From positions 1-47,016 of IMG/VR virus record IMGVR_UViG_3300036715_000269: DNA of 47,016 nucleotides; one strand, written 5' to 3'. Below, one piece after another: positions 129 through 47,016 of the stretch (within the stretch, counting starts at the first letter, position 1; the number at the start of each line of letters is the position of its first letter). Below the pieces are notes generated by a model. It searched no databases and was not told the origin of the DNA. It worked only from the letters and a program-made list of their open reading frames with translations. Both the position numbers and the translations under genes were made by a program. Origin of the DNA: a virus.

Positions 129-148
129 GCAGGGTCGTGAGACCCTGC
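129..148 (-). terminator. Hairpin with U-tract in the dpdA leader
   Basis: A perfect 8-bp stem (GCAGGGTC/GACCCTGC) with a 4-nt loop is followed on the minus strand by TTTT. It lies between folE and dpdA, just downstream of a predicted -10 box. It could terminate transcripts running out of folE, or form a 5' hairpin on the dpdA mRNA. Confidence 0.55.
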
Positions 149-157
149 ACTCGTTAC

Positions 158-186
158 ATTATAACGATCGTCAACTTAATCAGCAA
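158..186 (-). promoter_or_regulatory. Sigma70-like promoter for dpdA-clamp-polB
   Basis: Minus strand TTGCTG-17-TATAAT, with the -35 inside the end of folE (181-186) and the -10 at 158-163. It faces dpdA across the circle junction. The predicted start, about 151, places the hairpin at 148-129 at the very 5' end of the RNA. Confidence 0.6.
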
Positions 187-1093
187 GACGGAGAAACTCG
201 GAACGGGTCTGAGCTTCGTCCTTGATAACGCCGCGAAGAGCTGTGGTTATCGTGTGGTGGCCCTGCTGGCAGATGCCTCGCGATTCCATGCACAGGTGAC
301 GCGCCTTGACCAGTACGCCCACGCCCAACGGCTGGAGGTGTTCTACCAATGCGTCAGCAATCTGATCGGTGAGTCGCTCCTGCACTTGCAAGCGGCGAGC
401 AAACATATCCGCCAAGCGCGACAGCTTGCTCAGGCCCACAATCTTGCCGTTCGGGATGTAAGCGATACTGACGGTTCCAAAGATAGGCGCGAGGTGGTGC
501 TCGCAGTGCGAATAGATGGGGATGTCTTTGACGATAACCATCTGGTCATACTTCTCTGCACCGTCTTCGAACACCTTGAGCAGCGAGCCCGCGTCCTTGC
601 TGTATCCGCTGCACCAGTGGCGCCACGCTTTGGCCACACGGGTGGGAGTTTCCAGCAAGCCTTCACGGGTTGCATCCTCGCCGATGAACTGGAGCAGACG
701 TGTGATGTTGTTCTCGAACGAACCTGCTGCATCCTGCTCCCAAGGGAACACGACCCATTGACCGCCGTAGAGCTTGCCCTCACGCTTGTCAATCAGCGCG
801 AAGAAAGGCTTGCCAGGATGCTCATCACACAGTTGATCGCAGGTGGCACCACTGTCGATCAGGTCGTCAATGAAGATGTTTGCATCAGCAGGAGTATCAA
901 CGAGCAGCAAGCCGGGCACCAGCGGGCCCAGCAGGTAGGCAACGGGAACGCCGCCACGTGGTACTGCATACGCTGCCAAACGCTGCCCAGCGGGGCGATT
1001 GCGCCCCCACTGCTCGGCGTACTGGTTGATCTGCTTTGCGAGTGCGGCAGCAAGGGCGCCGACTGCTTCATGGGTGAGGGTAATCTGTTTCAT
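176..1093 (-). CDS. folE: Phosphoribosyltransferase-GTP cyclohydrolase I fusion (FolE)
   Basis: 305 aa, two domains. Residues 1-~120 look like a type I phosphoribosyltransferase: PRGG at 45-48, the PRPP-binding motif IFIDDLIDSGAT at 73-84, and WVVFPWE at 113-119, resembling the purine-binding end of xanthine-guanine PRTase. Residues ~125-305 are GTP cyclohydrolase I with the zinc site SHCEHH (195-200) and Cys268 in CMESRG. FolE converts GTP to dihydroneopterin triphosphate, the first step towards preQ0. It is the last gene of the queE/gat-queC/queD/folE run and starts 9 bases after queD. FolE is normally about 180-220 aa, so the N-terminal domain is an addition. Seen: both motif sets. Inferred: the PRTase acts on guanine and feeds GTP to FolE. 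An unrelated base substrate is possible. Confidence 0.9.
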   Translation of the reverse strand: MKQITLTHEAVGALAAALAKQINQYAEQWGRNRPAGQRLAAYAVPRGGVPVAYLLGPLVPGLLLVDTPADANIFIDDLIDSGATCDQLCDEHPGKPFFALIDKREGKLYGGQWVVFPWEQDAAGSFENNITRLLQFIGEDATREGLLETPTRVAKAWRHWCSGYSKDAGSLLKVFEDGAEKYDQMVIVKDIPIYSHCEHHLAPIFGTVSIAYIPNGKIVGLSKLSRLADMFARRLQVQERLTDQIADALVEHLQPLGVGVLVKARHLCMESRGICQQGHHTITTALRGVIKDEAQTRSEFLRLAD

Positions 1094-1102
1094 GTGTTGT
1101 CC

Positions 1103-1561
1103 TTAGATGTGGAAAGAGGCGGAGCACTTTGCAGTCTCCTCGATACGAACGGAGGTGAGCGTGACACCAGTGCCCTCGAGCTGCTGTGGCCCAATGACTT
1201 CAACCAAGTGGCGGGCCATGTTCTCGGCAGTGGGATTGAACGGGGTGAAGACAATGGACTCCGCAAACATCAAATGGGAGTCATTTCGATGTGTATCACC
1301 AAGAGCATCACATGCCGCATTCATAACAGGGTCATCTTCCCATGCCAGGAACTTGTGATCCCAATTGTTCTCAACCCACATGCACAGCTTTTCTTTGATA
1401 ACACCGAAGTCAATCACACGCCCGACCGTGTCCAGCTCACCAGCTTCACAGACGAAGTGGATACGGTAGTTGTGGCCGTGCAGGTGACGGCACTTGTTCT
1501 CGTGACCGACTACACGGTGACCCGTGCTGATGTCGTGATAGCGTTCCGCAGTTTGTTTCAT
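1103..1561 (-). CDS. queD: 6-carboxytetrahydropterin synthase QueD
   Basis: 152 aa, the full length of a bacterial QueD. It converts dihydroneopterin triphosphate to 6-carboxy-5,6,7,8-tetrahydropterin, the second step of preQ0 synthesis. The zinc ligands are visible as His15 and the HLHGH motif (His28, His30), with the catalytic Cys24 just before. WDHKF near residue 67 and the PTAENMA segment are also family features. Its ATG overlaps the stop of gat-queC as ATGA, implying translational coupling. Confidence is high because of motif order, length and pathway neighbours. Confidence 0.93.
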   Translation of the reverse strand: MKQTAERYHDISTGHRVVGHENKCRHLHGHNYRIHFVCEAGELDTVGRVIDFGVIKEKLCMWVENNWDHKFLAWEDDPVMNAACDALGDTHRNDSHLMFAESIVFTPFNPTAENMARHLVEVIGPQQLEGTGVTLTSVRIEETAKCSASFHI

Positions 1562-2931
1562 GCTGATTCCTTATATTCAATTACTTCAGGGAGACCGTTA
1601 ATTTCAAAAGCCTTGCGACGCATGTAGCACGGGCCGCAGGTGCCACAGTGCAGTTCGCCAGCACGGTAACAGCTCCAGGTGAGGTGCATCGGGGCGCCAA
1701 TCTCGTTTCCGAGCGCCACGATTTCATGTTTCATAAGGTTGCCAACGGGCATGATAACCCGCATCCGCTTCCCATCACCAACGGCGAACGGTAAGAGGTC
1801 ATTAAACCGAGCAATGAACTCAGGTTCGTTGTCAGGGTAGGCACCAGCTTCCTCGAGGTTGTTCCCGAGGACGATGGTATCGATGCCGCGTGCTTCCGCA
1901 AAGGCAGTGGCCACACTGAGTAGCAGCAAGTTCCGCGCTGGCACCCATTCGTAAGCAAACTCTGCACCAGCTTCACCGCCTGCGACTTTGCTGTCAGGGT
2001 CGAGCAACGGTGAGTCATCCTTGCGATACACGGGGAGCGGGAACAGGGTCAAATCTGCACCGAGTTCCGCTGCGACTGCTTCAATCGCTTTGACTTCAGG
2101 TGCTTCAGCGCGGCTACCGTACAGGAAGTGAATCAGGTGGATGCTCATACCGAGCTCCTTCTGTGCATACGCTGCACTCACCACACTGTCAAGACCTCCG
2201 CTGCATACCACGAGCGCACGTTCACCCTGGACGGGGTCTGTGTAAAGCGTACCGGACGACATGCGGGACAGGTCGAAACGTGCCGCTGTATAGGGTGTCA
2301 ACATACGGGGAGCCCACTGCTTGGGCAGGTAGTCCCGCGAGCTTGCAAAGAACAGACCGAACTCGGTTTCAATCATCCAGATTGGACGGTAGTTCGCAGC
2401 GACGTAGATCGCATCGGTTTCGTCTTTGTGCGTCGCGAGGATCGCATAGCTGCCCTTGAGCTTGCAAACCACATCCAGGAAAGCCTGCCCCGTGGGCGCA
2501 CTGCGGGCCAGCTGCTCGGCGATCGCTGCACTGTCAATGCTAGTGGGAAGGCTACCCGTGCGAAGGCCCTTGTCGTTGGCAATGGTGCCGTTATGCACCA
2601 CGGACCAGCCGCCATCGCTGTAAGGTTGCTGATCGGACAGACGCTTCTCCAGGACGTACTCGGTAGTCGGTTCGGCTCGCAGGTTGCAGATCACCGTCGC
2701 CGACTCGCACAGCTTGGAGAGTGCAGGGGGAACCGTGCCTTCGCCGTTGCTACGCTTGACGTCATAATGGGCCAGCGGTTCGCTTTCACCGCTGGAGTTG
2801 ATGACGAACCCGCGACCGTCACGACCACGTTCATGGCTGTGGTGCCAGATGTGTTTCAAGATCGCATTGACTTGTTCCCGCTTCTGGTGCGTGTCAATGC
2901 GCTGCACCAGTGCGCCTATGATTGCACACAT
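1558..2931 (-). CDS. gat-queC: Glutamine amidotransferase-QueC fusion (Gat-QueC)
   Basis: 457 aa. The N-terminal ~230 residues form a class II (Ntn) glutamine amidotransferase domain: Cys2 directly after Met is the expected nucleophile, with CNLRAEPT near 82-89 and VVHNGTIAND near 111-120. The C-terminal half is QueC, which makes preQ0 from carboxydeazaguanine: PP-loop SGGLDS at 244-249 and a C-terminal zinc site with CGTCGPC (last Cys near 436). Plain QueC is about 230 aa. The Gat-QueC fusion is known from archaea, where it converts preQ0 in tRNA to archaeosine, and from phages such as Enterobacteria phage 9g, whose DNA contains dG+. I infer the same final amidation of DNA-bound preQ0 here. 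Its ATG shares one base with the queE stop (TAATG). Confidence 0.92.
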   Translation of the reverse strand: MCAIIGALVQRIDTHQKREQVNAILKHIWHHSHERGRDGRGFVINSSGESEPLAHYDVKRSNGEGTVPPALSKLCESATVICNLRAEPTTEYVLEKRLSDQQPYSDGGWSVVHNGTIANDKGLRTGSLPTSIDSAAIAEQLARSAPTGQAFLDVVCKLKGSYAILATHKDETDAIYVAANYRPIWMIETEFGLFFASSRDYLPKQWAPRMLTPYTAARFDLSRMSSGTLYTDPVQGERALVVCSGGLDSVVSAAYAQKELGMSIHLIHFLYGSRAEAPEVKAIEAVAAELGADLTLFPLPVYRKDDSPLLDPDSKVAGGEAGAEFAYEWVPARNLLLLSVATAFAEARGIDTIVLGNNLEEAGAYPDNEPEFIARFNDLLPFAVGDGKRMRVIMPVGNLMKHEIVALGNEIGAPMHLTWSCYRAGELHCGTCGPCYMRRKAFEINGLPEVIEYKESA

Positions 2932-3650
2932 TAAGCCACCTCAATAATTTTATGGACCTGCAATTGCAGGGTGAAACCGTTAATCATAACGGAACGAACG
3001 CACGCCTGGAGGTTGGCAGCATTGACCGTGCTGTCCTTGTCGTCGCAGGGTTGCAGATAGACCGGACCAAAGAACCCGTCATGGGGACGTGCCACGTGCG
3101 GGCTTGCACTGTGGTCAAGCGCACGCAAGGGAAGCCCATCAGCGTGGATGCTATCATGCGCCATGACATACTTGTAGGCAGCGATCAACGGGATCAGCTC
3201 GCGATTCACAAGACCTGTCTTCGGGCTGCAAACGATGAAGCACTTGTTCTTCTCGAACAGGTTGAGAGAACACATCTCTGCGAATCCGATGGTGGGCGGT
3301 GCGAGCGTTCCGTTCGTTTCAATCTGCACCGTGTAACCAGCGCCAAGCAGTGCAGCAACGAGCGGGTGAATGTTCTGGCGGAAGGGTTCGCCACCCGTAA
3401 TGACCACAAGGCTCGGGGCTTGCTTCTGCTCTTGCACGAACTCAAGGATGCCAGCGGGACTAGACGCCCATCGGTTGCTGGTGTAGTCGGTATCGCAGGC
3501 GGGGCATTGCAGGTTACATCCGGCGAGGCGGACAAACACAGCGGAGTGACCAGTGAAAGGGCCTTCGCCCTGGATGGTGTGGAAGACCGAATGGACTTGC
3601 ACAATGCCGTCAGTATCAAGACAGCGTTTTTCGATGCTCTGAGTATTCAA
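2931..3650 (-). CDS. queE: 7-carboxy-7-deazaguanine synthase QueE
   Basis: 239 aa radical SAM enzyme converting carboxytetrahydropterin to 7-carboxy-7-deazaguanine. The cluster-binding motif is CX3CX2C at Cys45, Cys49 and Cys52 (GCNLQCPACD). The QueE-type GEGP appears at 28-31 and the SAM-binding TGGEP near residue 85. Length fits the family. It is the first gene of the queE, gat-queC, queD, folE run, 93 bases downstream of the preceding gene, with its own predicted promoter and a strong leader hairpin in that gap. Confidence 0.92.
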   Translation of the reverse strand: MNTQSIEKRCLDTDGIVQVHSVFHTIQGEGPFTGHSAVFVRLAGCNLQCPACDTDYTSNRWASSPAGILEFVQEQKQAPSLVVITGGEPFRQNIHPLVAALLGAGYTVQIETNGTLAPPTIGFAEMCSLNLFEKNKCFIVCSPKTGLVNRELIPLIAAYKYVMAHDSIHADGLPLRALDHSASPHVARPHDGFFGPVYLQPCDDKDSTVNAANLQACVRSVMINGFTLQLQVHKIIEVA

Positions 3651-27242: not shown

Positions 27243-27772
27243 TTGACCGTAATACACTCAACCGCGACATCCGCAAGGTGATAGCCCTTTGCACAGGGTT
27301 CGCACCTGCTGAGGTGCGCCCAGCAAACCAGCTAGGGGGCGCTACAGGCGATCGCTGGGCCACTGTCCTGATCCTAGCGCAGAAGAGCCAAGGCGACGCC
27401 CATACGTGGGCTAACGTGCCCAGCAGTCCTACAAAGCAAGTGACCGAGACAAGTGATAACCATGTGGCCATCACGGTGTCGGTGCAATTCTTTCGGCAAG
27501 ACGCGATAATGTCTGCCAACAAGTTACGGGACAGGATTACCCTGACTTCTGCATTGCAGTTGATGCAGAGCCTCGGCCTAGGTTACATTCGGTGCAGTGA
27601 GCCGAAAGACCTTTCCGCGGTCGTGAATGCGAACTGGGAGCAGCGAGCAGTCTGCGAACTTGACTTCTATGTTGTGAGCACAGAAGTTGAGAACGTGGAT
27701 ACGTTCGGAACCTTCACGTTCAATGTATCAACTGGAACAAATCTTCCTAACTACGAGGTGATCGAGCCATGA
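27239..27772 (+). CDS. Neck / tail terminator-like protein
   Basis: 177 aa starting at GTG 27239 (GTGA overlap; GAAAGG upstream). It contains IRKVIALCTGFAPAEVRPAN, VSVQFFRQDAI and LDFYVV near the end, like the neck proteins encoded before sheath genes of myoviruses. It would cap the tail tube and sheath. ATGA overlap with the sheath gene. Confidence 0.72.
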   Translation: MIDRNTLNRDIRKVIALCTGFAPAEVRPANQLGGATGDRWATVLILAQKSQGDAHTWANVPSSPTKQVTETSDNHVAITVSVQFFRQDAIMSANKLRDRITLTSALQLMQSLGLGYIRCSEPKDLSAVVNANWEQRAVCELDFYVVSTEVENVDTFGTFTFNVSTGTNLPNYEVIEP

Positions 27773-29235
27773 CTATACCTGTCAATAAGGTCGTAGATGT
27801 CAAAATCTACACGTCCCCGATCTTTCCGCAGCGTAAGGGCTTCGGTCTGCTGCTGATTATCGGGACTTCCACTGTTCTACCCGTTGCTGAACGGATGCGC
27901 GAATACAGCGACATCACGTCCATCGCAACCGACTTCGGTACGTCCTCCGAAGAGTACAAGGCCGCACTGGCGTTCTTCAGCCAGGCACCTGCACCGACCA
28001 CACTGCGGATCGGCCGTCGCTTTGTGACTGCTGTGTCTGGTGAAAACTTGGGTTCACTCAACTACACCAACACGATCGCAACCTGGAACGCTGTCACCGC
28101 TGGCAGTATGCAAGTCGCAATCGATGGCGTGAATAAAACGCTGTCCGCGATGAACTTCACTACCGACACCACGCTCGCTCTTGTTGCTGCCCGCATTCAG
28201 TCCGCACTGGTTGCCGCTGGTGCAGTTGGCGCCACGGTGGTGTTCCTGGGCAATCGCTTTGTGATCCGCTCCGGTACTACTGGCGCCACCTCGACGGTGG
28301 GCTACACCAGCACGACTGGCGCTGGCACCTACATCGGAACGATGCTGGGCACCGACGCAAGCGTTAGCCCGATTCTGTCTGCTGGTGCAGTGGCTGAAAG
28401 CGCCGCAACCTGCCTGACGAATATGCAGAACTATTCGACTGCATGGTATGGCGTGACCTTCACCAATACTGCATCCGTGCAGGACTTGAAAGACGCGGCT
28501 GCATGGTGCGAAGCACTGGTGAAGATCTTCGGCTATACCACGTCGGACATCAACTCCAAAGACCCGCTCCAGACTACCGACATCGGGTACTACATGAACT
28601 CGATGTTGTACCGTCGCACGTTCGGTATCTTTGATTCCACCGACCCTTATGCAGTGTGCAGCGCAATGGCCCGAGCCTTTGTGGTCAATTTCAACGAGCA
28701 GAACAGCACGCTGACCCTCAAGTTCAAAACCCTGCCGGGCTGCTCGCCTGAGAGCCTTACGTCCAACGACAAGACGGCGCTCGACGCGAAAAAGCTGAAC
28801 TATTACACGCGATTCGGCGACAGCGCAATGCTGGCGGAAGGCGTTATGGCGAACGGTGTGTTCTTCGACGAAGTGCATGGTCTGGATTGGTTGCAGAACG
28901 CAATTGAAACGAACGTCTTTGGCTTCCTCTACACTCGCACGACGAAGGTTCCGCAGACCGATCGCGGTATGCAGCTGATCGTCCAGCAGGTGGAAAAGGC
29001 GCTCGCTGACGGTGTGAATAACGGTCTGCTGGCTCCGGGCACCTGGAACGGCGATGAGTTCGGTCAGTTGAAGACTGGTGACTTCCTCAAGGCTGGTTAC
29101 TATGTCTATGCGGCCCCAATGGCCACACAGAACAGTAGCGATCGCCAGGCGCGCATTGCACCTCCCATCCGTGTCGCCGCCAAGGGCAGTGGAGCAATCC
29201 ACTTCGTCAGCGTCGGTGTTACGTTCGACCGCTAA
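27769..29235 (+). CDS. Tail sheath protein (DUF3383)
   Basis: 488 aa. The start (VNKVVDVKIYTSPIFPQRKG), LRIGRRF near 85 and the C-terminal KAGYYVYAAPMATQNSSDRQARIAPPIRVA-type segment identify DUF3383, the contractile sheath of AP22-like and related phages. This is the main evidence for a contractile tail. Residues ~95-200 form a Thr/Gly/Ala-rich inserted domain likely to face outwards. Confidence 0.88.
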   Translation: MTIPVNKVVDVKIYTSPIFPQRKGFGLLLIIGTSTVLPVAERMREYSDITSIATDFGTSSEEYKAALAFFSQAPAPTTLRIGRRFVTAVSGENLGSLNYTNTIATWNAVTAGSMQVAIDGVNKTLSAMNFTTDTTLALVAARIQSALVAAGAVGATVVFLGNRFVIRSGTTGATSTVGYTSTTGAGTYIGTMLGTDASVSPILSAGAVAESAATCLTNMQNYSTAWYGVTFTNTASVQDLKDAAAWCEALVKIFGYTTSDINSKDPLQTTDIGYYMNSMLYRRTFGIFDSTDPYAVCSAMARAFVVNFNEQNSTLTLKFKTLPGCSPESLTSNDKTALDAKKLNYYTRFGDSAMLAEGVMANGVFFDEVHGLDWLQNAIETNVFGFLYTRTTKVPQTDRGMQLIVQQVEKALADGVNNGLLAPGTWNGDEFGQLKTGDFLKAGYYVYAAPMATQNSSDRQARIAPPIRVAAKGSGAIHFVSVGVTFDR

Positions 29236-32821: not shown

Positions 32822-33157
32822 ATGTTTGAGATCCCTGTAACAGCCGACGCTGCACAATCCTTCACGACCCAATTGGGTGACGCGAAGTTTGTGTTTGACT
32901 TGCAATGGAATGACCGGACTGCACAGTTCAGCTTGACCCTTACGAATGAAGACACTCAGCAGGTGTATTTCGAAGGGCTTCCGCTCGTACTAGGCACCGA
33001 TCATCTTGAGCCTTACAATTACGGCATCGGATCACTACTCGTGGTCGATACCAGCAACACGGGGCGCGAAGCTACGCTGACAGATTTCGGCGATCGCGTC
33101 AAACTCTATTGGTTCTCAGAGGACGAGAAAGCTAATGCAATCAGTGCGTCAGTATAA
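32822..33157 (+). CDS. Baseplate plug protein
   Basis: 111 aa beta-rich protein. FVFDLQWNDRTAQFSLTL and GLPLVLGTDHLEPYN match the plug domain described for cyanophage Pam3 gp18 and found in other simple contractile tails. It would close the tube end at the hub before contraction. It overlaps the next gene by 23 bases. Confidence 0.75.
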   Translation: MFEIPVTADAAQSFTTQLGDAKFVFDLQWNDRTAQFSLTLTNEDTQQVYFEGLPLVLGTDHLEPYNYGIGSLLVVDTSNTGREATLTDFGDRVKLYWFSEDEKANAISASV

Positions 33158-34064
33158 GCGCCACACGCAAGTCATCATCGGGAAGGGCGGTAACGGCCTC
33201 CTGATTGAGAACTTGCGGATTGCATTTGAGGTCGTTAAAGATCATCAGTCCGCTCCGAACAGTGCCAACATCAAAATCTATAACCTCAACGACCAGCATC
33301 AAGCGCAGATTCGCACCGAGTTCGACGATGTGATCTTGAATGCAGGGTACGAGGGCGCCGAAGCGGTTCTGTTCCGCGGTAACGTGCGCCATGTGTATCG
33401 CTACCGCGACGGGAACGACTGGATCGTTGAAATAGACTGCGGCGACGGAGACCGTGATTTCCGCGGAGCTGTGGTCAATGAAACCCTGTCCGCTGGTGTA
33501 AGCGACACACAGCTCGTTGAGCGTGTATGCGGTAACTTCAGCACGACCAAGAAGGGCAGCGTCAAGGGTGTAGGAGCTACACCCCGTCTCCGCGGCAAGG
33601 TGGTGAGCGGTAACGCTCGCACGGTGCTGGACGACATTGCACGTCAGCATGACTGCAATTGGAGCATCCAAGACGGACGCTTGCAGATCGTTAAGTCTAA
33701 CGGCGTGCTGGATACCGAAGCAATTTTGATCAACGATGATACGGGTATGCTCGGGGCGCCACAACAGGACGACAAGGGTATCAAGGTCAAGACCTTGCTC
33801 AATCCCATGTACCAGATCAACGGTCGCATCCATCTGGATAACGACAACATCAAAAAGAAGAAAAAGAAGATCGGTGAAACCGCTTCAGACGAAGACGTCA
33901 ACTCAACCAAGAAGCAGGAGAAAGAACCTGCACGCTTGGACCCTGACGGCATCTATAAGATTTACAAGCTGACGCATAAAGGTGACAACAGGGGCCAGGA
34001 TTGGGTCACTGAGGTTGAGTGCGTTAGCATGGACAGCGCGTTCCCGCAGAAGGGGGCGAAATGA
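33135..34064 (+). CDS. Baseplate hub protein (gp27/gpD-like)
   Basis: 309 aa. IIGKGGNGLLIENLRIAFEV at the start, NSANIKIYNLN and LFRGNVRHVYRYRDGNDWIVEIDCGDGDRDF-type hub segments; the C-terminal part is YKIYKLTHKGDNRGQDWVTEVECVSM. A Lys-rich loop (KKKKKK near residue 240) is inserted before it. It forms the trimeric hub that carries the spike. Confidence 0.8.
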   Translation: MQSVRQYKRHTQVIIGKGGNGLLIENLRIAFEVVKDHQSAPNSANIKIYNLNDQHQAQIRTEFDDVILNAGYEGAEAVLFRGNVRHVYRYRDGNDWIVEIDCGDGDRDFRGAVVNETLSAGVSDTQLVERVCGNFSTTKKGSVKGVGATPRLRGKVVSGNARTVLDDIARQHDCNWSIQDGRLQIVKSNGVLDTEAILINDDTGMLGAPQQDDKGIKVKTLLNPMYQINGRIHLDNDNIKKKKKKIGETASDEDVNSTKKQEKEPARLDPDGIYKIYKLTHKGDNRGQDWVTEVECVSMDSAFPQKGAK

Positions 34065-34684
34065 GTTCCGGTGTAGTAAGCGACATCCGCGATCAGGCAC
34101 AGAAAGCAGCCAACGGTGACGAGGCGTACAAAGCCCACATCGACGCGGCTCTTAAGAACCTGCATACCAGCCTTCCCGGAGTGGTGCAGAGCTACGATGC
34201 GGCCACGCAGACGGTAAGCGTGCAGCCTGCGATCAAGCGTGTGTTCAGCGAGAAGGGTGCCACACCTCTGCCCGTGTGCGTAGATGTTCCAGTATGCTTT
34301 CCAGGTGGCGGTGACTTCTACCTGACCTTCCCCGTGAATGCTGGTGACGACTGCATCCTGGTGTTCAGCGAACGCTGCATTGACTTTTGGCACGCGAACG
34401 GTGGCGTTCAGTTGCCCGCTGAATATAGATTACACGACCTTTCGGATGCGTTTGCAATTGTCGGAGTGAATAGTCAACCTCGGAAACTTGCAAGCGTGCA
34501 GACTGATGGTGCAGAGCTTCGCACCCGCGATCGCAGTACCTACATCAAGCTGACGAACGGTACGATCTACATCAAGGGAAACATCACGCACAGCGGTGGC
34601 ACAATCAGCAGCAACGGCAAGAACATCGGCTCGACCCATACACACAATGAGACGGGAACCGTCACGAATGGACCTAACCCATGA
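34061..34684 (+). CDS. Central spike protein (gp138/gpV-like)
   Basis: 207 aa. The N-terminal OB-like domain has LPGVVQSYDAATQTVSVQP and VPVCFPGGGDFYLTFPV, then a repetitive beta-helix (YIKLTNGTIYIKGNI) and the tip STHTHNETGTVTNGPNP. The HxH near the C-terminus is the pattern that binds iron at the tip of P2 gpV and phi92 gp138. It would pierce the outer membrane. Coupled to its neighbours by ATGA. Confidence 0.87.
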   Translation: MSSGVVSDIRDQAQKAANGDEAYKAHIDAALKNLHTSLPGVVQSYDAATQTVSVQPAIKRVFSEKGATPLPVCVDVPVCFPGGGDFYLTFPVNAGDDCILVFSERCIDFWHANGGVQLPAEYRLHDLSDAFAIVGVNSQPRKLASVQTDGAELRTRDRSTYIKLTNGTIYIKGNITHSGGTISSNGKNIGSTHTHNETGTVTNGPNP

Positions 34685-35037
34685 GAGTGAGACGCATTGA
34701 CAAGAACCATGACATGACCTTCGGTCGTGGTCGCGGTAACTTTGCTGACGCTGCTGAGTCGGTAGCACAGCGCGTGAAGACCCGACTCTACCTGCTGAAT
34801 GGTGAATGGTTCTTGGACACGACTGCTGGCGTGCCCTACCTGCAAAAGATCGCAACGAAACCCGCCGACCTTGCTTATGCCGAGTCGGTGCTGAAGCAGA
34901 CCATTCTGCAGACGGATGGGGTGGCCACAATTTCGCAGTGGCAAGCAGACCTCAATCCCAATAACCGTCGCCTGAGCGTGTCGTGCAATGTGACGACAAT
35001 CTACGGAACGATAGAGAACATAATGGTGACTATATGA
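34681..35037 (+). CDS. Baseplate wedge protein (gp25/W-like)
   Basis: 118 aa. RLYLLNGEWFLDTTAGVPY followed by VLKQTILQTDGVATI is the LysM-free gp25/W-like pattern seen in simple contractile tails. It connects sheath and wedge. ATGA overlap with the J gene. Confidence 0.83.
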   Translation: MRVRRIDKNHDMTFGRGRGNFADAAESVAQRVKTRLYLLNGEWFLDTTAGVPYLQKIATKPADLAYAESVLKQTILQTDGVATISQWQADLNPNNRRLSVSCNVTTIYGTIENIMVTI

Positions 35038-36185
35038 CGCAAGTAACAAGCCTTGGGTTCCTCCGCACCCGCTTAGACGAACGGCTGGACCAGCTCAAAG
35101 AAGCCTATCGCGACATCTACGGGCAGGACATCAGCATCGAGCCCGACGACATGGACGGTCAGTTCCTTGGAATCCTGTCCGAGCGCCTGTCCGACCTCGA
35201 CCAGCTTGCGGAAGACATCTACAACAGCTTCAACCCTCAGCTGGCAACAGGTGTAAGCCAGTCCCGGCTGGTGCAGCTTAACGGCATACGCCGCATTGCA
35301 GGCACGTACAGCACGGCAGACGCCACGCTCAATGGTACTCCAGGGGTAACAGTGCCTGCGGGCAGCTTGGTGAAGAGCTCGGTCGATAATACTTCCTGGG
35401 CAACCACTGCTGACGCTACCTTTGACGGGAACGGTCTTGCGACGGTGACGCTGAAGTGCGTGACGCTCGCAGCTATCACGGCAAGCGCAGCGACGCTGAC
35501 AAAGATTGACACCCCGATCTACGGCTGGTTCAGCGTAACGAACGCGAATGCTGCTACCGTGGGCCGCGCTGAAGAGACAGACGAAGAGCTTCGCATCCGC
35601 CGACGTGGAAGCACGAACACCCCTGCACTCTGCATCGTTGATGCTGTGTATGGCGGGCTGACAAACCTGTCCGGCGTGCGTCCTGCACGAGTCTATGAGA
35701 ACGCTTCGGACGTAGTTGATGGGAACGGGCAGGCAGCTCACTCCATCTATTGCGTCGTTGAAGGCGGTGTCGTAGCTGATATCGCTGCATTGATCTGGAA
35801 GAACAAGACAGCGGGAACCACGACGATCGGAACGACGAGCACTGTGGTCAATGACTCGCAGGGCCTGCCCCACACAGTAAAGTTCAGCCGTCCAGTTTAT
35901 TCGGACATCTATATCACTGTAAATGTGACAAAGCGCACGGGATACCCGACAGACGGTACAGCGCGGATCAAGGCTGCACTGGTGGCCTACGGTTTGACGC
36001 TGGGCATCGGAGAACCGTCTTTGGTCAGCAGGCTATACACTCCTGTCAATACTATCCCGAACCACTTTATCACCTCCATCTATCAGGGGCTTGCACCTGC
36101 TCCCGGAACTGCTGGAAACATCACTCCAACCTTTGACGGATTGATTCGCATCGATGCGTCACGCATAGTAGTGAATGAGACATGA
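35034..36185 (+). CDS. Baseplate assembly protein J-like
   Basis: 383 aa from ATG 35034 (ATGA). The start GFLRTRLDERLDQLKEAYRD, the Thr/Ala-rich Ig-like middle and RRRGSTNTPALCIVDAVYGGLTNLSGV identify the baseplate_J family (T4 gp6/P2 gpJ). It builds the wedge ring. The end carries NHFITSIYQGLAPAPGTAGN. Confidence 0.9.
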   Translation: MTQVTSLGFLRTRLDERLDQLKEAYRDIYGQDISIEPDDMDGQFLGILSERLSDLDQLAEDIYNSFNPQLATGVSQSRLVQLNGIRRIAGTYSTADATLNGTPGVTVPAGSLVKSSVDNTSWATTADATFDGNGLATVTLKCVTLAAITASAATLTKIDTPIYGWFSVTNANAATVGRAEETDEELRIRRRGSTNTPALCIVDAVYGGLTNLSGVRPARVYENASDVVDGNGQAAHSIYCVVEGGVVADIAALIWKNKTAGTTTIGTTSTVVNDSQGLPHTVKFSRPVYSDIYITVNVTKRTGYPTDGTARIKAALVAYGLTLGIGEPSLVSRLYTPVNTIPNHFITSIYQGLAPAPGTAGNITPTFDGLIRIDASRIVVNET

Positions 36186-38478: not shown

Positions 38479-38811
38479 ATGCTGACCACACTTGCGCTCG
38501 CGTTCCTTACTGTGTATGCACTTTGGGTCTTCTACCTTGCGGTGATGAACCTCAAGCGTGCGAACGACGCGGGCAAGCTGTCCAAGCCTGCAAAGTTCTT
38601 TGGCACCCCTGTTCTCGTGATCGGGTACGTGCTGGACTTTGCATCCAACCTCATATTCACCCTTCCGTTCCTGGACTTGCCCCGTGAGACCACTGTCACA
38701 GCGCGTCTCAAGCGGTATGCAAAAGGCCCTGACGGTTGGCGTAAGCGTGCGGCGCTGTGGTTCGCTGACGACATGCTTGACGATTTCGATCCATCCGGGA
38801 GGCACATATGA
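38479..38811 (+). CDS. Conserved phage membrane protein
   Basis: 110 aa with two hydrophobic segments (2-24 and about 45-65), then LPRETTVTARLKRY and a soluble end FADDMLDDFDPSGRHI. Proteins with this end are common near phage lysis genes; function not known. It could assist lysis. ATGA overlap with the next gene. Confidence 0.65.
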   Translation: MLTTLALAFLTVYALWVFYLAVMNLKRANDAGKLSKPAKFFGTPVLVIGYVLDFASNLIFTLPFLDLPRETTVTARLKRYAKGPDGWRKRAALWFADDMLDDFDPSGRHI

Positions 38812-43119: not shown

Positions 43120-45120
43120 TTATGTAGGGGTAGGCTTACACGCATATCCGATGTCTTCCAGCATACGGTTGGCCTCTCGCTCATACCAGTCATAATCAAT
43201 GTCTTGGGGAAACACCTTGGGCAAGTCCATCAGAGGCACTGCACCCTCGGAACGGGGCACCTTGTTCCCGCTGTCCGCATACACAATTTCACCCTCTTCG
43301 CCTGCTTTGTAGTACCAGCGAATGGACTTGCCCAGGAACGTGCCATCCTTCACCGCGCCACCCTTGACAGTACGCACGGACACGAACTTACGAATGTCCG
43401 TGCAGCCGCGAATCGTCCGGTGCAGTGGTGCGCCTTTGGTAAGCAGTGCAATAACTGCATCTACACATATCTGGTTCGTCGGGTTCTTGTGAAGCTGGTC
43501 GGAGGGCTTCTCTGGACTAGCATAGGCGCCTTTCGTCTTAACCTTGCCGTCGGGCTTCACTGCGATGTAGTTATTCACGTCACGGGAATAGACTGCCGTG
43601 TAGGTTGTTTCCTCAGTCTCGAACGCTGTGTCAATTTCCCACTGCTTGATCACTGCTTCCATTTCAGCGTGACGCACCTTGGGGCACTTGATCACGATGC
43701 CGTCTGTGTTTGCGCTGACCACATTGATTCCACGTATCTCTAGGCGCTCAATCAGCATAAGCAGCGACAGCTGACCCGTCACCGTTACCTGAATCAGCAG
43801 GTCAGGGGAGTACAGGACAGACCACTTGCTTCCGAGCTTGCCGAAGGAACCGTTAATCGTGATCTTCAAGGAGTCAGCGACGACCTTGTTGCCTGACCGC
43901 TTGGCGTCCAGACGCTTGTTCACAAGCTGCTGATAGACGCGAAGGAAGTTTGTGCTGAGGTGATGCGGGTACAGGCCCAAGTTCAAAATGATTGCAGGGT
44001 AGTAAGAGGTCACGTCACGGTCAACGATGATAGTGTGGTCATCCGCTCTGTGTGCTGTGCATTGCTCGGAGCTATGCAGCCCACCAATTCCCATTCGATA
44101 CACGCCACCAGCGATCTGAAGTTTGAGCTCTTTCAGCTCCGCAGGCATACCAATGTTCCCATCCTCGCTCACAATGAAGTCTGCACGGCGCACAATGTCC
44201 AGCGCCCAATTCATAAGCGGTGATTCGTACTTAATGAACGCGGGCACCCTGTAACGGTAGCGCGTCCCAGGCTCGATCGTTGGGCGCTGCACCCTGCACC
44301 CGTTCAGCTTTTCGATCTCCTGCGCAATGACCGACTCAGCAATCTGTGCATCGGACTTGGAACGCAGATCAACCCCGTATTCGTTGCTGAGGGTTTCGCG
44401 GAGCGAAATCTGTTCCTTCAAGGACTCATGTAGAATAGCGGTGTTCGTCAAGTCATTCACGCAATACCAGCGAACGATCGCAATCTGGTCTTCGGTGAGC
44501 AGTACCTCGGGATGGAACGGTAAGTCCTGCATCCGTGGTGCGTGCAAGCGTCCGCCGTAGATCTTCAAGCTGGCCCGCAGTGGTGCCACCTCAATCAGAT
44601 CGATGTGGTCTGGTCGGATGCTCTTTACTTTGAACCCGCGAAGCACGTCCGAGGGGCGCGTTCCATTCACAATGATGTCGTTCGTTGCTTGCTTGAGCTG
44701 GGCGCAATTCTTACCAGCCAGCGCAAGCGCCAGAATTGGTAAGTCATAGCCCCAGCTATTGAACCCCACGAGGCAGAAGTTATTCACAATCCATTGCAGC
44801 TTGTTCGCATCGAAATCACTTGTTCGCGTGCGCTCAAAGTAGATCACCTTCCCTGTCACAAGGGAAGTGAAAGCGATCAGGAAATAATTGACATAACACT
44901 CGATGTCGAATATGAACCGTTCGCGACGTGCAGCAGCTATCGGCAGCTCCCAATCCTCGAACATCGCCACGCGGAACGCTCGTGCTTCTTCCAGGCCGGG
45001 CAGGTAGTCTGGGCTCTCCCAAGTGCGGGCAGGTGGTGTCCTCTTGGGCTTCTCCAGCTTAGGAGGTTTCGGGGGCGGTGTATCGTCCCAGAAGAACCCC
45101 GCCATGTCTGCTCTTGCCAT
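43120..45120 (-). CDS. Family B DNA polymerase with 3'-5' exonuclease
   Basis: 666 aa, short for the family. Exonuclease: FDIECY (71-76), FNSWGYDLPIL, and WYCVNDL. Polymerase: motif A DVTSYYPAIILN near 370, motif B KITINGSFGKLGS near 425, motif C ANTDGIVI near 475 (NTDG instead of the usual DTDS). The N-terminal ~40 residues are Pro/Lys-rich. It replicates the phage genome. Its ATG shares a base with the clamp-like gene's stop (TAATG), and both follow dpdA in the same unit. The NTDG variant occurs in other phage polymerases and should be active. Confidence 0.92.
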   Translation of the reverse strand: MARADMAGFFWDDTPPPKPPKLEKPKRTPPARTWESPDYLPGLEEARAFRVAMFEDWELPIAAARRERFIFDIECYVNYFLIAFTSLVTGKVIYFERTRTSDFDANKLQWIVNNFCLVGFNSWGYDLPILALALAGKNCAQLKQATNDIIVNGTRPSDVLRGFKVKSIRPDHIDLIEVAPLRASLKIYGGRLHAPRMQDLPFHPEVLLTEDQIAIVRWYCVNDLTNTAILHESLKEQISLRETLSNEYGVDLRSKSDAQIAESVIAQEIEKLNGCRVQRPTIEPGTRYRYRVPAFIKYESPLMNWALDIVRRADFIVSEDGNIGMPAELKELKLQIAGGVYRMGIGGLHSSEQCTAHRADDHTIIVDRDVTSYYPAIILNLGLYPHHLSTNFLRVYQQLVNKRLDAKRSGNKVVADSLKITINGSFGKLGSKWSVLYSPDLLIQVTVTGQLSLLMLIERLEIRGINVVSANTDGIVIKCPKVRHAEMEAVIKQWEIDTAFETEETTYTAVYSRDVNNYIAVKPDGKVKTKGAYASPEKPSDQLHKNPTNQICVDAVIALLTKGAPLHRTIRGCTDIRKFVSVRTVKGGAVKDGTFLGKSIRWYYKAGEEGEIVYADSGNKVPRSEGAVPLMDLPKVFPQDIDYDWYEREANRMLEDIGYACKPTPT

Positions 45121-46073
45121 TACTGCCTCATCCCGATAATTGCGCCACGTATTCTGTCACCGAAGAACATGCACGGATTAGGATAGCATGACCAGTCAAC
45201 GGACGTCGCTGTGCCTTGCAGTAGGTTCAGCATCTCAATCTGATAGACGCCACTGTGGTGAAACCCGTCAATCTCGTAGCCCGCACCTTCGGTCTCTTCG
45301 TCATGGGTGCATACACGCCCACCCTTGAACAACACTCTACCCATCTTGTCAACGAAGGGCCTGATTGTCTTAAGACCTTCAAAAAGTCGCGGGTCAATTG
45401 GGGTGGGGTTGCTTTCACGGTTCAGCACTTTGGTGAGGTCGGGCCACTTGGTTTCGAATAGCTGTGTCCGGATCCACCTGTTCCCGCTGTAATGGAACGT
45501 AATCGCATTGTCGGTCATCTGTGCATACTGCGGAGCTTCGTTAATGCGGAGCATCTCTTTGATCGCTGCACGGGGTACGTTGAGCGGCTTTGGAAAGGTA
45601 GCGCCTGTCCAGTATTCAACGAGGACGATATTGTTCGTTGCGAATGCTGACTGGCCCAGCAGCAGGACACCGTTCGACCATGGGCGCGAAGCATCGTCCC
45701 CGATAAAGGGTGCAACGGTTTTCAGGGCGCGGAGCATTGCTTCACCTTCGATAGCCACATGCTCTCCCTCGGGCATGACGTGCGGCGTGTCACCCTCAAC
45801 GCAATCAACAAAGGCCTTGAACTTACCGCTCTTCACAGACAGGCGCCCCGCTGGTGTAAGCGACAGGGTCACCGTCTCATTACAGTTCGCGATCGCCTTG
45901 ACAAGAGACTCAGCTTTGGGCTTGCACGCAATGTCAAAGGGGATAGGGCTGCACAGCGCGAGCATCCCGTTATAACCGCGGACAGTTCCGTTCTCGATAA
46001 CGAAGTGCGTCAGTGCAGGTAAAAAGTCTTTCTTGGCGACAGCGCCTTGAACAAACTTGAGGGATGTAAGCAT
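45120..46073 (-). CDS. Sliding-clamp-like (DnaN-fold) protein
   Basis: 317 aa. Spaced features follow a beta-clamp: SLKFVQGAVAKKDFLPALTHFV at the start, WIRTQLFETKWPD where clamps have the loop before the third domain, and the end CMFFGDRIRGAIIGMRQ matching the terminal 'MPMRL' strand. Length is a little under bacterial clamps (~365). It would tether the coupled polymerase. Similarity is visible but not strong, so structure prediction should confirm it. Confidence 0.6.
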   Translation of the reverse strand: MLTSLKFVQGAVAKKDFLPALTHFVIENGTVRGYNGMLALCSPIPFDIACKPKAESLVKAIANCNETVTLSLTPAGRLSVKSGKFKAFVDCVEGDTPHVMPEGEHVAIEGEAMLRALKTVAPFIGDDASRPWSNGVLLLGQSAFATNNIVLVEYWTGATFPKPLNVPRAAIKEMLRINEAPQYAQMTDNAITFHYSGNRWIRTQLFETKWPDLTKVLNRESNPTPIDPRLFEGLKTIRPFVDKMGRVLFKGGRVCTHDEETEGAGYEIDGFHHSGVYQIEMLNLLQGTATSVDWSCYPNPCMFFGDRIRGAIIGMRQ

Positions 46074-46996
46074 TAGAAGAGCTCCTGGATATGTGCAGTC
46101 AATTGTTCATAGTTGTTCTTTGCGTTCATCATTGCATTCACAACACCGTAGGCCCATAAATTATACGCTGCACGCGATTCATAGACTTGAGATAATCGTT
46201 CGTATGTGAACCCCTGCGACTCCAGCGTCTGCAGAACGAAGTCCTGCTCGATGGGTGATAGTGTGGTTGCATGTTGCCCAGCGTCGTGCCTGGAGGGCGA
46301 CTTCTCGGATACGGACAGCGGGCCCCATTCAGGGGTCACAATGCTGCCGAATGCAGCAGACTGAATCCAGGAGGACGAGTCAACGCTGTACCACGGATAA
46401 CGCTCCATGATTGGAATCGCTGTGATACCGAATCCATGTACCTTGAGCCGCGGGCGACCGCTACCGTCCGTGAGGTACTTGTCCCACATACGGTCGAGCC
46501 AGATGCAAAGCTGCTTCGTGGAGCTGCCCACCATACCGCCGAGCGTGATATATTCGTAGTTCTTGACGTAGTGCTCAAGGTAGCGTTCATCCTCACCAGC
46601 GTGGAAGCAGGGGAGAGGCTTTGCTCCGAGCTGCTCCATTGCGAGCTGGTTCTGGTACGTCTTGAGCGGGTCACCAATACCGTCAAGCACGGACGCCATC
46701 ACGACACCGTCTTCGACCCTCCAGAGGTCCATGTTCCGCTTGATATAATCGCAGTACGTGGGCAGGTCAATTTCAACGCCCAAGGTGTATGCAGAGAACG
46801 CTCCCGAGTCCAGGAACACGCTTGCATTGTCTGCTCGCATCTGGTCGATATAACGCTGTGAGCCGATGTAGTGGTACGACTCCAGGATGTGCGGAATGTT
46901 GTGAACGATCTCGCGCTCGCGCTCGTTGAGCTTCAGATAACGGTTCTGCCCGCGCATATACGAGTTCGTATAGACAGCAGCCATGAAGATATTCAA
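46073..46996 (-). CDS. dpdA: DNA guanine-transglycosylase DpdA (TGT-like)
   Basis: 307 aa. FLDSGAFSAY (61-70), then VMASVLDGIGD and YITLGGMVGSS, are the TIM-barrel motifs of phage DpdA enzymes, relatives of tRNA-guanine transglycosylase; the acidic residue of FLDSG would be in the active site. The CxCxxC zinc motif of tRNA enzymes is not visible, as expected for short phage forms. It would exchange guanine in DNA for preQ0. TTG 46996 is the start: GGAGGT lies 6 bases upstream, whereas the next ATG (46984) is too far. The TAA shares a base with the clamp ATG. Confidence 0.85.
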   Translation of the reverse strand: MNIFMAAVYTNSYMRGQNRYLKLNEREREIVHNIPHILESYHYIGSQRYIDQMRADNASVFLDSGAFSAYTLGVEIDLPTYCDYIKRNMDLWRVEDGVVMASVLDGIGDPLKTYQNQLAMEQLGAKPLPCFHAGEDERYLEHYVKNYEYITLGGMVGSSTKQLCIWLDRMWDKYLTDGSGRPRLKVHGFGITAIPIMERYPWYSVDSSSWIQSAAFGSIVTPEWGPLSVSEKSPSRHDAGQHATTLSPIEQDFVLQTLESQGFTYERLSQVYESRAAYNLWAYGVVNAMMNAKNNYEQLTAHIQELF

Positions 46997-47016
46997 TTGT
47001 GACCTCCGATCGTAAA
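46890..47016. repeat. Direct terminal repeat, right copy (127 bp)
   Basis: Exact copy of bases 1-127. Removing one copy leaves a unique circle of about 46,889 bp in which dpdA is intact and folE lies directly upstream of it on the same strand. Confidence 0.9.

Follow-up and report, generated by a model that had tools for sequence, protein, structure and literature searches.

Two questions are raised by the 7-deazaguanine genes of an uncultured phage known from an IMG/VR virus record: which modified base would they place in the phage DNA, and what may be the role of an additional domain carried by one of the enzymes that they encode? The window, that is, the whole stretch of 47,016 nt that was analysed, had been credited in a preliminary description with dpdA, folE, queD, gat-queC and queE. 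The answer begins with how these genes are arranged, as the window is linear and the set is divided between its two ends.

Layout of the gene run on a circular assembly

Sequence comparison found positions 1–127 of the window to be identical to positions 46890–47016. This exact 127-bp terminal overlap closes the contig into a 46,889-bp circle, on which the genes do lie together, as had been proposed. The overlap resembles the k-mer overlap of an assembly and is thus best read as evidence of a circular assembly, not of packaged terminal repeats. The coordinates first given for the five ORFs also proved right, and all of them are on the minus strand and matched their expected families. Read along this strand of the circle, the order is queE (3650–2931), gat-queC (2931–1558), queD (1561–1103), folE (1093–176), dpdA (46996–46073), the gene for a DNA polymerase processivity factor or clamp (45120–46073; phrog_947, 9e-77), which is next downstream of dpdA as in NP1 and 9g, and polB, for a family B DNA polymerase (43120–45120; phrog_1252, 2e-222). 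The seven genes form a single co-directional run.

The preliminary description had the gene set interrupted by a promoter and a hairpin, and only the latter is found. Direct reading of the sequence between folE and dpdA reveals a hairpin (129–148, minus strand; GCAGGGTC-loop-GACCCTGC on the plus strand) with a perfect 8-bp stem, followed on the operon strand by TTTT. It is absent from the output of the consensus scan and could possibly work as a weak terminator or attenuator. By contrast, the consensus scan of this gap found no sigma-70-like promoter; the TATAAT in it lies only ~6 nt past TTGAC.

The gene set is ordinary for its kind. The Nipunavirus NP1 and Quinobequin-P09 (Queuovirinae) share with the window the gene order, Gat-QueC and a DpdA that is 76–78% identical. 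The operon of NP1 is the same apart from one inserted ORF, a homing-endonuclease ORF located between folE and dpdA, where the window has the hairpin. Quinobequin-P09 has already been assigned to the dG+ group (PMC6884629). In 9g, where function was established experimentally (PMC6884629), FolE, QueD, Gat-QueC, QueE, DpdA, clamp and PolB are likewise encoded in one run, but with an extra ORF between gat-queC and queE.

DpdA, the preQ0 pathway and the predicted base

The base exchanger encoded at 46073–46996 (minus strand) is a DNA guanine transglycosylase of the DpdA1 type (phrog_887, E=3e-91), in agreement with its earlier assignment. Its TTG start at 46996 has GGAGGT ~6 nt upstream, and the N-terminus, MNIFMAAVYTN, is common to NP1 and nearly to CAjan. 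Alignment gave identities of 78% to NP1, 70% to CAjan, 69% to 9g, 67% to Iggy (for which DNA modification data reportedly exist), 32% to Dp-1 and 19% to E. coli Tgt. In an ingroup sequence tree, the protein is in a clade with NP1, 9g, CAjan and Iggy relatives, and not among proteins of another function. An earlier tree whose outgroups were E. coli Tgt, Rosebush and Dp-1 was discarded for its false long-branch joins, and the ingroup tree took its place. The AlphaFold model (pLDDT 92.5) has the TGT fold, its best PDB matches being archaeal, eukaryotic and bacterial TGTs, and the two conserved Asp residues, D63 and D206, are invariant. In addition, H187 aligns with His196 of 9g, and a His at this position marks 9g-type DpdA (DpdA1) and is absent from DpdA2 (PMC6884629).

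The set of enzymes from GTP to preQ0 had been described as complete with its motifs intact, and this is borne out: FolE, QueD, QueE and QueC are all present, and every catalytic motif checked by alignment to 9g and NP1 is intact. The correspondence between motifs and catalytic residues, in these enzymes and in DpdA, is assumed here from knowledge of the families. QueE (2931–3650, minus strand; TTG start; phrog_2076, 2e-53; 52% identical to 9g) has the radical-SAM motif CNLQCPAC, and QueD (1103–1561, minus strand; PTPS, 2e-25; phrog_2389, 7e-50; 53% to 9g) has its Cys and HGH. In the GTP cyclohydrolase I domain of FolE (residues 125–305; 176–721, minus strand; PF01227, E=4e-70), the zinc and catalytic Cys and His residues (C197, H199, H200, H266 and C268) are present and are invariant in 24 relatives. 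Gat-QueC (1558–2931, minus strand; PF06508, 2e-52; GATase_7, 3e-6) joins a class II glutamine amidotransferase (Cys2) to QueC in one protein. It is 65% identical to the NP1 protein and aligns over its full length with that of 9g at 52% identity; Cys2, NLRAEPTTE, HNGT, SGGLDS and a zinc motif of four Cys are kept, as in 9g. The presence of the genes, their order, their intact motifs and their close relation to tested enzymes are thus directly observed.

Both 9g and CAjan had been invoked for comparison. The comparison with 9g stands, as Gat-QueC and the gene order match, whereas CAjan is the poorer model because it has no Gat-QueC and makes dPreQ0. The DNA modifications of both phages have been measured, and CAjan with a mutated dpdA loses the modification together with its restriction resistance (PMC6884629). 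Furthermore, folE, queD and queE of 9g complement E. coli mutants, and its gat-queC and dpdA put dG+ into DNA (PMC6884629).

In the proposed pathway, FolE, QueD, QueE and QueC would convert GTP into preQ0, and DpdA would exchange chosen guanines of the phage DNA for the 7-deazaguanine base in a TGT-like reaction that releases free guanine. The nitrile would become an amidine through the action of the glutamine amidotransferase domain of Gat-QueC, giving mainly dG+ (deoxyarchaeosine) and possibly some dPreQ0, and the modified DNA would be shielded from host restriction enzymes. What we infer is the reaction in this phage, what it produces, how much of the G is replaced and that the DNA is protected. 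Very probably, the window holds a complete gene set of the known, 9g-like dG+ type, which would place mainly dG+ in the virion DNA by base exchange and protect it from restriction. The predicted product is dG+ because this is the base that the matching Gat-QueC of 9g gives.

Gene content has been wrong at least once as a predictor of the product, since dG+ was predicted in this way for Dp-1, which actually carries dPreQ1 (PMC6884629), and this counts against the dG+ reading. The same pathway could instead lead mainly to dPreQ0 (or dADG) in DNA, if the Gat domain were inactive or acted elsewhere. Indeed, DpdA alone inserts dPreQ0 (PMC6884629), and the loci L045 and L046, which belong to the DpdA clade of the window, have a plain QueC without Gat, so a DpdA of this type can work with operons limited to preQ0. 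Nevertheless, such an outcome is improbable here, as the Gat motifs of the window are intact in a full-length protein and the Gat-QueC of 9g does give dG+ (PMC6884629). It is hardly credible that the operon serves to raise queuosine precursors for host tRNA instead of modifying DNA. The preQ0 pathway is common to queuosine synthesis, but the operon includes a DNA-type DpdA that is near DNA-acting DpdAs and far from Tgt, the DpdA of 9g failed to complement an E. coli tgt mutant (PMC6884629), and no queA, queG or queH was noticed among the ORFs scanned.

As a separate observation, L045 and L046 are close DpdA relatives of the window in which QueC has no Gat, so the predicted modification type switches inside one DpdA clade.

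A phosphoribosyltransferase-like domain fused to FolE

The FolE of the window has 305 aa and is longer than a normal FolE. Its residues 1–122 (728–1093, minus strand) are a separate domain that was absent from the preliminary description. Searched alone, this domain was not recognised by Pfam, and a sequence search of the PDB gave weak matches (E about 0.03), all of them xanthine/guanine PRTases. With the whole FolE model, the best 50 Foldseek matches were all FolE and are uninformative about the N-domain. The identity of the domain was settled by profile comparison, in which a profile of 13 relatives aligned with E. coli Gpt (hhalign; probability 95, E=3e-8). As in Gpt, there are a PPi loop, a PRPP loop with the catalytic Asp, and purine-contact Lys and Trp residues, here Lys103 and Trp113; PRGG and IDDLIDSGAT are also conserved. 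It differs from Gpt in its fusion to FolE and in the deletion of the flexible catalytic loop. This loop of ~25 residues is missing from every fused copy and present in the standalone proteins of L016 and L048. Thus, of the features of a type I purine PRTase, the PRPP loop, the PPi loop and the purine contacts are found and the flexible loop is not.

When viral contigs were scanned with the N-domain only, 27 loci were found. The domain is fused to FolE in 11 of them (L005–L015), and a DpdA homologue is nearby in all 11; the other 16 (L016–L031) lie in T4-like contigs and encode the PRTase on its own, FolE, if seen, being a separate gene. The fusion is also present in 20 of the 37 DpdA-selected loci that cover folE, some of which are overlapping pieces or near copies, and it is found both with and without Gat. 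The FolE tree requires at least five state changes, and its deepest branches include fused copies, a pattern consistent with an old fusion that was lost several times. The fusion also occurs in isolated phages, including NP1 (extended FolE of 297 aa), PaMx25, Quinobequin-P09 and VpKK5, in which the protein is annotated merely as GTP cyclohydrolase; by contrast, the FolE of 9g has 204 aa and no phosphoribosyltransferase domain. The literature searched, which excluded work on four additional 7-deazaguanines and Iggy, yielded no description of the fusion.

Among ~85,000 cellular species genomes, two short peptide patterns recovered one relative, in Sinorhizobium psoraleae. There, the fusion is beside queD, queC, queE and a queF-like gene, and the equivalents of Lys103 and Trp113 are lost. 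This phage-like que cluster with a degenerate PRTase–FolE fusion lies on a bacterial scaffold (L079:2847–6796); a search for DpdA in that genome, run without a positive control there, gave no match.

Several other loci deserve mention. Instead of the fusion, the DpdA1 locus L048 has a standalone PRTase, flexible loop included, in the slot between queD and folE. The same slot is taken in two DpdA operons (L049:4099–4500 and L052:4755–5147) by a gene that resembles nucleoside 2-deoxyribosyltransferases (PF05014, E about 1e-10); undetected deoxyribosyltransferases have been raised as a possibility (PMC6884629). The QueD ORFs of L043, L049 and L052 are divergent, with an HGH motif that reads HGY (CRxLHGYAL), and are putative QueD. 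In T4-like contigs, as at L016:3733–9645, a standalone PRTase ending in WVVFPWE is accompanied by FolE, a YhhQ-like transporter, a QueE-like radical SAM gene and a gene resembling those for IMPDH or GMP reductase. The case for guanine salvage from the gene neighbourhoods of the T4-like L016–L031 was considered weak, since a search of six of these contigs for DpdA or TGT found neither.

Given the TGT mechanism, each exchange by DpdA should set one guanine free. Guanine, GMP or PRPP is the probable ligand of the fusion domain. Salvage of the guanine released by DpdA and sensing of guanine nucleotides to tune FolE seem about equally likely, and the missing flexible loop argues against efficient catalysis. 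It is tentatively proposed, with somewhat less than even confidence, that the phage FolE of 7-deazaguanine operons has an undescribed and ancient Gpt-like domain for dealing with the guanine that DpdA sets free, either through re-ribosylation to GMP for a renewed supply of GTP or through GMP/PRPP sensing that would set FolE flux.

The domain might also be a dead relic or a structural extension without any ligand role. At 15 predicted ligand positions, picked from knowledge of Gpt, identity averages 90% against 50% elsewhere, and 0 of 20,000 random sets equalled this. The conservation of ligand residues argues against a relic, even though R46 is variable, D80 is G in L007 and the loop is gone from all fused copies. 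Similarly, the FolE of 9g, CAjan and Iggy has no such domain, as would suit a dispensable extension, but the fusion extends across deep branches of the FolE tree, and neither K103 nor W113 varies among 24 sequences with overall identity as low as 43%. A domain with no ligand role is therefore regarded as unlikely.

Virion module and affinities of the phage

Queuovirinae are siphoviruses, and the window differs from them in having a contractile-tail module, with a tail sheath gene (phrog_205, 1e-122) and baseplate hub and wedge genes. By its gene content, the phage is probably contractile-tailed. The best match of TerL (63%) is from Rhizobium phage RHph_X3_2, a phage with queuosine genes of its own and a short FolE. 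The replication and queuosine module is homologous to that of 9g and NP1, whereas the siphovirus structural module and terminase typical of the subfamily were not found. The phage is not filed in Queuovirinae because its operon and polymerase genes are Queuovirinae-like and its structural module is not. The tail sheath and baseplate genes (27769–29235 and 33135–36185), together with the Queuovirinae-like replication/queuosine module, make the genome a modular chimera. An ORF at 38808–39251 matches phrog_1128 and is enoyl-CoA hydratase-like.

The dG+ type of DNA protection, best known from siphoviruses, would thus extend to an uncultured contractile-tailed phage. Since the dG+-type operon occurs here with a different structural module, the queuosine–replication block appears to travel as one piece. 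The part that deserves follow-up is the FolE fusion. A guanine-PRTase-like domain in this position raises a question that has apparently not been asked, namely how phages deal with the guanine that every base exchange sets free. If the proposed role is true, a by-product of DNA modification would be coupled to the synthesis of its precursor.
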